Under the pieces are notes generated by a model. The model was not told where the DNA came from. It made no database searches and saw only the letters and a list, made by a program, of their open reading frames with translations. DNA of 25,982 bases from a virus, in the IMG/VR virus record IMGVR_UViG_3300017706_002457, positions 1-25,982 of that record; one strand, given 5' to 3'. Shown here one piece after another: positions 4,983 to 5,909 of the stretch (positions are counted from its first letter, which is position 1; each line of letters begins with the position of its first letter). Both the position numbers and the translations under genes were made by a program.

Positions 4983-5390
4983 TTAATCACCAATTTTAAA
5001 CGATTTTGGCTTTTTATCTTCAGGGATTGATTTATCTAAAAACACAGATAGAATTCCATCAGTGAGAGATACTTTTGAAACTTCAATGTATTCACCTAAC
5101 GTAAATGTTTTATTGAATTTACGTGTTGCAATTCCTTTATGAATATATTCTTTATTGCCGTTTAAATCAACATCTTTAGATGCGACGGAAAGAACATTTT
5201 CATTTTGTTCAACGAATAAATCACCCTTACTAAATCCAGCGACTGCGATAGCAATTTCAAAGCTATCTTCATCGTGTTTTACCACGTTATGTGGTGGATA
5301 AGTTGGTTGTTTTGAACTTAATTTTTCGATTCGGTCAAAGACGGAATCGAACCCGACTGTCCACGCATGTGGAATATTATATGTTGTCAT
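4983..5390 (-). CDS. hsp20: Small heat-shock protein, Hsp20/IbpA-like (alpha-crystallin domain)
   Basis: ATP-independent holdase chaperone of 135 aa. The alpha-crystallin domain spans about residues 35-125: VVKHDEDSFEIAIAVAGFSKGDLFV, then ENVLSVASK, the FNKTFTLGEYIEV segment and the DGILSVFLDK strand typical of IbpA-type proteins. Such genes are common in marine T4-like phages, where they probably help fold or protect capsid and tail proteins. The gene has a late promoter at 5475-5482, a leader of about 80 bases, and a strong Shine-Dalgarno (AAGGAG, eight bases before the ATG). It ends in its own terminator. Unlike most genes here, its leader is long and folded, see the ROSE-like element at 5399-5471. 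Confidence 0.92.
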   Translation of the reverse strand: MTTYNIPHAWTVGFDSVFDRIEKLSSKQPTYPPHNVVKHDEDSFEIAIAVAGFSKGDLFVEQNENVLSVASKDVDLNGNKEYIHKGIATRKFNKTFTLGEYIEVSKVSLTDGILSVFLDKSIPEDKKPKSFKIGD

Positions 5391-5398
5391 TTTTTTAT

Positions 5399-5471
5399 CT
5401 CCTTATTTAAGCGAGTTAATATTGTGGACTCCTTTCGGACATCCGATTTGAAAAGCTTCGTGCTTTTCAAA
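5399..5471 (-). promoter_or_regulatory. Candidate ROSE-like RNA thermometer in the hsp20 leader
   Basis: Three hairpins can be drawn in the minus-strand leader. Hairpin 1 (5447-5471) has a 10-bp stem, loop ACGAA. Hairpin 2 (5426-5444) has UCC-GAAA-GGA closed by GGA/UCC. Hairpin 3 (5399-5415), CUCGCUUAAAUAAGGAG, pairs UCGCU with the Shine-Dalgarno AGGA and leaves one bulged G. UCGCU fits the UYGCU anti-Shine-Dalgarno motif of ROSE thermometers that control bacterial sHsp genes. The fold is drawn by eye. Confidence 0.45.
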
Positions 5472-5473
5472 AG

Positions 5474-5896
5474 TTATTTATACGATTTAATGTTACCAAT
5501 CGAATATTTTGATTCTAAATTCCATTCTTTTTTATCTTTATGAGAAATAATTTTAATTGCTCTTAAAGACGTTTTTGGATTTGCAGAGGAAGGTATTACG
5601 ATTTCAAGTAAACCCCAATCAGAAAGTAAAGTGGTAATTGTATTTCTACGAGCTAAATCGTCTTCTGTAAAGTTTGATGGTTTTCCATCTAATAAAAAAA
5701 GTTCTTTAAAATGTACAATAAAATAGCGGCCTTGTTTATGCAAAATATGACAACTTTGATAAAGTGTGTTATTTTCTTTTTTAGAAGATACACCAATTCT
5801 TGTAAGTGTTTCTTTTATTTTAAGAAAGTCGTCTGGTTCTTCAATCCGGACCTCAAGCATATTAGAAGGTTTCCATTCTGTAACATCTTCGTTCAT
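5474..5896 (-). CDS. regA: RegA-like translational repressor
   Basis: RNA-binding repressor that in T4 binds initiation regions of early mRNAs, including replication genes, and blocks ribosome loading. Residues 13 onward match T4 RegA closely in memory: MLEVRIEEPDDFLKIKETLTRIG, then LYQSCHILHKQGRYFIVHFKE, NTITTLLSDWGLLEIV and a C-terminal EWNLESKYSIGN. Full length is 140 aa against about 122 in T4. The T4 protein starts at the position of Met13 (ATG at 5860), so the first 12 residues may not be translated. A late octamer at 5902-5909 sits only five bases before the ATG at 5896, so that start would be leaderless, while 5860 would have a leader of about 36 bases but no clear Shine-Dalgarno. It lies in the conserved 44-62-regA order. 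Confidence 0.93.
   Translation of the reverse strand: MNEDVTEWKPSNMLEVRIEEPDDFLKIKETLTRIGVSSKKENNTLYQSCHILHKQGRYFIVHFKELFLLDGKPSNFTEDDLARRNTITTLLSDWGLLEIVIPSSANPKTSLRAIKIISHKDKKEWNLESKYSIGNIKSYK
5475..5482 (-). promoter_or_regulatory. Late promoter (TATAAATA) for hsp20
   Basis: An exact T4 late octamer. Its bases form the last codons and stop of regA (TAT AAA TAA), so promoter and coding end are interlocked. The start should fall near 5470, giving a leader of about 80 bases. Confidence 0.75.
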
Positions 5897-5901
5897 AGAA
5901 C

Positions 5902-5909
5902 TATTTATA
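5902..5909 (-). promoter_or_regulatory. Late promoter (TATAAATA) at regA
   Basis: An exact T4 late octamer on the minus strand, five bases before the ATG at 5896 and 41 bases before the alternative start at 5860. Confidence 0.6.

Follow-up and report, generated by a model that had tools for sequence, protein, structure and literature searches.

ROSE elements have been described from the heat-shock genes of proteobacteria and, lately, from ABC transporter genes. They are defined by a U(U/C)GCU motif paired with the Shine-Dalgarno (SD) sequence in the 3' hairpin, together with a bulged G, and small heat-shock genes are preceded by two to four such hairpins (PMC3669281, PMC11342760, PMC11182007). 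In phages, the RNA thermometers so far recorded are lambda cIII, the fourU element of SPbeta blyA and a Caudoviricetes sigma70 fourU (PMC10586365, PMC11182007); cIII is an alternative-structure switch and the others are fourU elements, so that none is of the ROSE type. None of them controls a chaperone gene. The cyanophage Hsp20 protein HspSP-ShM2 is an active chaperone in vitro, and the papers that describe it make no mention of a thermometer or of an untranslated leader (PMC3827213, PMC5028025). In the open-access papers searched, no phage was described as carrying a ROSE element. Here we describe the leader of a viral hsp20 gene, the product of which belongs to the same protein family as the cyanophage Hsp20, and suggest that this leader is likely to be a phage-borne ROSE-type RNA thermometer. 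Judged by anatomy, it and its counterparts in other marine phages form a new group of ROSE-like elements carried by viruses.

The window (the whole stretch of DNA that was analysed, 25,982 bases) is a virus record with a T4-like gene set, and its DNA polymerase is closest to that of Phage C48C1 (Kyanoviridae, 49% identity), with cyanophages next. The hsp20 leader was followed on the minus strand from 5482 to 5391 (Table 1). An earlier, sequence-only reading of this DNA had seen a 10-bp hairpin, a GNRA-capped hairpin and a third hairpin burying the SD, in that order after the late promoter, and both the coordinates and the fold agree with this. It was also right that the anti-SD strand contains a UCGCU which fits the UYGCU motif and pairs with AGGA, and that a G is bulged opposite the AGGA, this being G5412. 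Hairpin B has a weak extension (UUA/UAA) reaching 5419/5395. Hairpin A holds a second SD-like string, AAAGGAG (5435-5429, minus strand), with no ATG after it, and as GGG or GGA stands at this site in most leaders, both hairpins share a YGCY/RGG core with a bulged G, as if duplicated.

Table 1. Features of the hsp20 leader and its setting, in window positions
Feature	Position	Strand	Basis
hsp20 (small heat-shock protein, 135 aa)	4983..5390	-	Pfam PF00011 E=1.1e-14; phrog_432 E=4e-38
regA (translational repressor), adjoining hsp20 on the upstream side	5474..5896	-	PF01818 E=8e-44; phrog_242
T4-type late promoter TATAAATA, overlapping the regA stop codon	5475..5482	-	sequence
Hairpin 1, 10 bp, TTTGAAAAGC-ACGAA-GCTTTTCAAA	5447..5471 (5471-5462/5456-5447)	-	fold
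ROSE-like core, hairpins A and B	5397..5445	-	covariance model R1 (window clade left out of the model)
Hairpin A, GGAU-(bulged G5440)-UCC-GAAA-GGA-GUCC, GAAA loop at 5436-5433	5426..5444	-	fold
Hairpin B, SD-sequestering, CUC-(bulged G5412)-CUU-AAAU-AAG-GAG	5399..5415	-	folds
Anti-SD strand CUCGCUU, with ROSE motif UCGCU (UYGCU) at 5414-5410	5409..5415	-	sequence
Shine-Dalgarno AAGGAG	5399..5404	-	sequence

Of the 18 listed leaders of the window clade, 17 have the late promoter, at -72 to -95 relative to the ATG, and L026 is without it. The stem of hairpin 1 is maintained through different sequences in L005, L012, L022, L004 and L018; among the window-clade leaders compared it is not present in L008, L011, L013 and L019, and we therefore place it outside the conserved core. 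Transcription from the usual T4-late start (predicted at ~5469) would cost this hairpin two of its ten pairs. A role for it as part of a sensor is unlikely, since it is missing in relatives at ~73% Hsp20 identity.

Late promoter and start codon are separated by 84 nt for hsp20, compared to 5-65 for the other late promoters of the window and 5-12 nt for most other late genes. Relatives likewise have a promoter ~85 bases ahead of hsp20 and 5-7 ahead of several other genes, the short distances being seen in L001-L025. By this measure the leader is indeed the longest in the window, as had been claimed, but by intergenic gap it is not, as gaps of 127-290 nt are present. It was also called the most structured, and this is true when judged by how much energy is needed to open the SD (5.6 kcal/mol at 20°C, with the next at 2.2). 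Folding of the leader gave a minimum free energy of -21.4 kcal/mol compared to a mean of -10.4 for shuffled sequences (z=-4.5, none of 200 shuffles being equally stable), and the SD is paired in the predicted structure. Only hsp20 has an SD of the GGAG type in the window, where a recognisable SD is absent from nearly all genes. The 84-base leader and the strong, buried SD are thus exceptional in this virus, which points to regulation of hsp20 alone, and a thermometer would explain why hsp20, alone in the window, has a strong SD. Elsewhere on the minus strand, TATAAATA stands 5-12 nt ahead of start codons (at 5909, 15704, 21748, 20202 and 15222, for example as TATAAATAGAATTATG and TATAAATAGTTCTATG), and if transcription starts at the distance usual for T4, the mRNAs of several late genes, regA among them, are predicted to be leaderless or nearly so.

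At the Rfam gathering thresholds the window yielded two tRNAs only and no ROSE element. A search with permissive settings on 181 bases around the leader (4227 families) returned ROSE_3 at 5385-5444 on the minus strand, over model positions 1-69 of 69, at 29.3 bits (E=1.4e-4) against a gathering cut-off of 43 bits, so that a ROSE model does match the site but the element is not filed under ROSE_3 (RF02523). ROSE_2 matched the leader at 12.1 bits and the original Rfam ROSE family gave no match to it. Three other phages scored 26.8-34.1 bits against ROSE_3, none at the cut-off; curated models would hence not annotate the phage elements, and they may have been overlooked for this reason.

ROSE_3 has a consensus fold of two hairpins, both with a bulged G, and the window leader shares it. 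Like the Pseudomonas ibpA element of that family (RF02523, PMC3669281), the leader has the UYGCU-SD pairing in the second hairpin, the AUG outside the helix and a small heat-shock gene downstream; apart from its score below the cut-off, it differs in its phage setting, in the T4-type late promoter ahead of it, in being richer in A/U, in its shorter hairpin A and in the optional extra 5' hairpin of its clade. With classical ROSE elements (ROSE1 of Bradyrhizobium hspA; ROSE_2, RF01832, of E. coli ibpA) it shares the SD/anti-SD module with its bulged G and, counting hairpin 1, a three-hairpin layout, but its hairpins are fewer and shorter. All the sequence features by which the literature defines ROSE are present, namely the motif imperfectly paired with the SD and the bulged G, and there are three hairpins, two of them conserved, with a PF00011 gene downstream. 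It is not a fourU element, as its anti-SD, CUCGCUU, is without four consecutive paired U.

For a wider comparison, hsp20 genes were gathered by protein similarity, blind to their leaders, from IMG/VR contigs, named phages and bacterial genomes (the bacterial set coming from an alignment query; a single-protein query gave no match). In scoring the SD helix the SD was fixed first and the best hairpin then sought, with or without a one-base bulge. A bulged G was found in the SD helix of 127 of 137 distinct viral leaders, and the bulged base of hairpin A, parsed separately, was G in 126 of 129, compared to 8-9% with upstream bases shuffled and 18% in shuffles respectively, the viral contigs being mutually related so that these counts overstate independence. 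The bacterial hsp20 leaders had the bulged G of the SD helix in 73 of 74 cases (8-9% in shuffles), and the ROSE motif of the anti-SD strand is conserved among phage and bacterial leaders. The helix itself varies while the module is kept, as GUC-G-CUU/AAG-GAC in S-CAM4 (GUCGCUU/AAGGAC) and CCAC-G-CUU/AAG-GUGG in cyanophage S-TIM5 (CCACGCUU/AAGGUGG), both with the bulged G kept, and as UUAGAU-G-CUU/GGA-GAUCUAA in DSL-LC02. Where UCGCU is lost in close relatives, with Hsp20s ~73% identical, the loss is compensated by CCUGCC/GGAGG, again with the bulged G kept (L004, L008, L010, L018). Vibrio phage PWH3a-P1 is without the element. A ROSE-like architecture thus stands ahead of almost every hsp20 gene sampled from abundant marine phages, cyanophages included.

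The base pairs covary in both hairpins. Among 83 distinct, model-aligned leaders 99.3% of cells were paired and double changes occurred in 9 of 13 pairs (153 double-change cells compared to 34 in shuffles, with slid controls 49-66% paired), and the covariation score lay above all 500 shuffles, in an alignment that was fitted to the structure and so leans towards it. For hairpin A in 25 cyanophage and other viral leaders (MAFFT alignment A4, with members partly selected for their ability to form the hairpin), 98.9% of cells were paired and five of seven pairs had changed on both sides, with covariation in the outer stem. Whole-leader MAFFT alignments (A2, A3, A5) were left out as variable loop lengths misplace the parts of the hairpins.

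A covariance model, R1, was built from 11 leaders with the window clade excluded, and it matched the window core at 35.9 bits (E=8.9e-11), the next match in the window being 10 bits. When 22 phage records were searched with R1, 18 had a match and the top match was the hsp20 leader in every one. Second matches in S-CAM8 and P-TIM40 are weak, lie inside the uvsX coding sequence and were taken as chance. On 701 kb of control viral contigs, which had been fetched for another reason, R1 found four loci with E<0.01, all of them hsp20 leaders. Scanning IMG/VR for the pattern CTCGCTT-N2..8-AAGGAG-N4..9-ATG with ORFs of at least 40 aa gave Hsp20 in 94 of 109 ORFs among the matches listed, and in 0 of 97 among the matches listed when the bulged G was changed to A, figures which are fractions and not totals. 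The ROSE-like architecture first proposed for this leader is therefore supported by the ROSE_3 match, conservation, covariation, an independent covariance model and a near-exclusive placement at hsp20. These same properties of conservation, covariation and hsp20 specificity exclude a chance hairpin. RegA binds translation starts, and regA adjoins hsp20 on the upstream side here and in several cyanophages, as would suit a RegA repressor site in the leader; however, bacterial chromosomes have the element too, as do phages whose hsp20 is not beside regA, and we give an explanation by chance or by RegA hardly any weight.

In a tree of Hsp20 proteins those of phages and proteobacteria are intermixed and the element is common to both, making it likely that it was inherited with the gene. 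The element is likewise present with the Hsp20s of the Pelagibacteraceae, which share up to 60% identity with the Hsp20 of phage HTVC008M; some of the bacterial records are metagenome bins which may hold phage contigs, while that of HIMB114 (L350) is on a 1.24-Mb contig. The element of the cyanophages was not taken from their present hosts, as the hsp20 genes of marine Synechococcus form a separate branch (100/100) and both the ROSE hairpin and the strong SD were absent from them in the 28 genomes read (four of which gave a distant chance match to a loose motif regular expression); an origin from these hosts is ruled out. A short contig (C143) of the metagenome-assembled genome Synechococcus sp. 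CPC35 does carry a phage-type Hsp20 with a ROSE leader (L402/L507), but an ordinary host hsp20 is found elsewhere in the same bin and the contig is probably a binned phage contig.

The intermixing of phage and proteobacterial Hsp20s and their shared element, together with the stability of sea temperatures, would agree with a fixed translation attenuator, in which the leader sets a constant low rate and the hairpin has been kept since hsp20 came with it from bacteria. Against this, the stem sequences turn over while the pairing and both bulged Gs are kept, which suggests continuing selection on a weak, imperfect helix and not plain repression, and we consider a fixed attenuator quite improbable.

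The preferred reading is that of a thermometer. Structure, conservation, covariation, hsp20 specificity and likeness to ROSE_3 are computed properties of the leader, and to them we would add the following course of events. Late in infection TATAAATA would drive transcription of hsp20. At low temperature AAGGAG would be paired with CUCGCUU in hairpin B, leaving G5412 bulged, and ribosomes would load poorly; the bulge would make the helix weak, so that on warming hairpin B would open and the output of Hsp20 would rise accordingly, with no need of further transcription or of a protein to sense the heat. Hairpin A, which has a bulged G as well, is a conserved companion and probably prevents misfolding and isolates hairpin B.

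The predicted energies fit such a course. The cost of opening the SD at 20 and 37°C is 5.5 and 3.2 kcal/mol for the window leader, compared to 4.4 and 3.1 for a Pseudomonas ibpA-type leader (L091, an unverified record) and 6.0 and 4.6 for a Mesorhizobium leader (the value of 0.0 for L350 was left out as a likely artefact). It is thus within the Pseudomonas-type to rhizobial range, which is compatible with a ROSE thermometer but no proof of one because ROSE helices have non-canonical contacts that the energy model does not take into account. ViennaRNA leaves the SD more than 90% paired up to ~42°C in the window leader and likewise in bacterial leaders of this family, with a median predicted half-opening at ~60°C in the viral as in the bacterial leaders, and so is no guide to the temperature at which ROSE elements switch, even the bacterial ones. 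In the L091 record (OQ572409.1, "Pseudomonas phage Y7") an ibpA-like gene follows a ROSE leader of the Pseudomonas type, so that this record may be bacterial and not phage DNA.

E. coli IbpA represses its own translation via its 5' UTR, and for this it depends on R93 and on having an aromatic residue as residue 34 (PMC10474464). The viral leader could similarly be in the main a binding site for phage Hsp20, with free chaperone blocking its own translation until unfolded or aggregating protein late in infection draws it off and releases synthesis, temperature being incidental. By motif match, the R93 equivalent is present in 60 of 71 phage Hsp20s and the aromatic residue in 70 of 71, the window protein having both (GIATRKF and TYPPHN), and the conservation of hairpin A, which is without an SD to mask, would be more easily explained by a binding partner. 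However, an arginine of the R93 type is common in alpha-crystallin domains generally, the window protein has Thr at the K98 equivalent, where Ala abolishes IbpA repression, and eight phage Hsp20s (L027, L029, L030, L033, L034, L040, L065, L098) have Lys at the R93 equivalent, a change by which IbpA likewise loses its self-repression, although the two-hairpin element is retained in those examined. We therefore rank the thermometer first and treat self-repression as an addition to it or a rival, and as the main function of the leader it seems to us unlikely. A combination of the two, in which a virus-wide ROSE family senses both heat and protein aggregation, its hairpins being also held shut by free phage Hsp20, is offered only tentatively, as less likely than not; if true, chaperone output would track the load of unfolded virion protein late in infection, and would do so in hosts as far apart as cyanobacteria and SAR11.

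If the leader is a thermometer, a lytic virus brings its own temperature-gated chaperone switch for which a ribosome is the sole requirement, and the folding of phage protein would be tied to ocean temperature. What a lytic phage would gain from this is uncertain, as marine hosts meet small and slow temperature changes. The phage leaders are a large natural set of covarying variants.

A two-hairpin element matched by R1 (19.5-45.3 bits) was also seen ahead of ORFs of 63-84 aa (L130, L196, L175, L113, L141, L181), some of them on contigs of 194-215 kb. These ORFs had no convincing match in Pfam or PHROGs and to the eye look helical and phasin-like; going by the element ahead of them, they may form a second ROSE-controlled family of phage genes.
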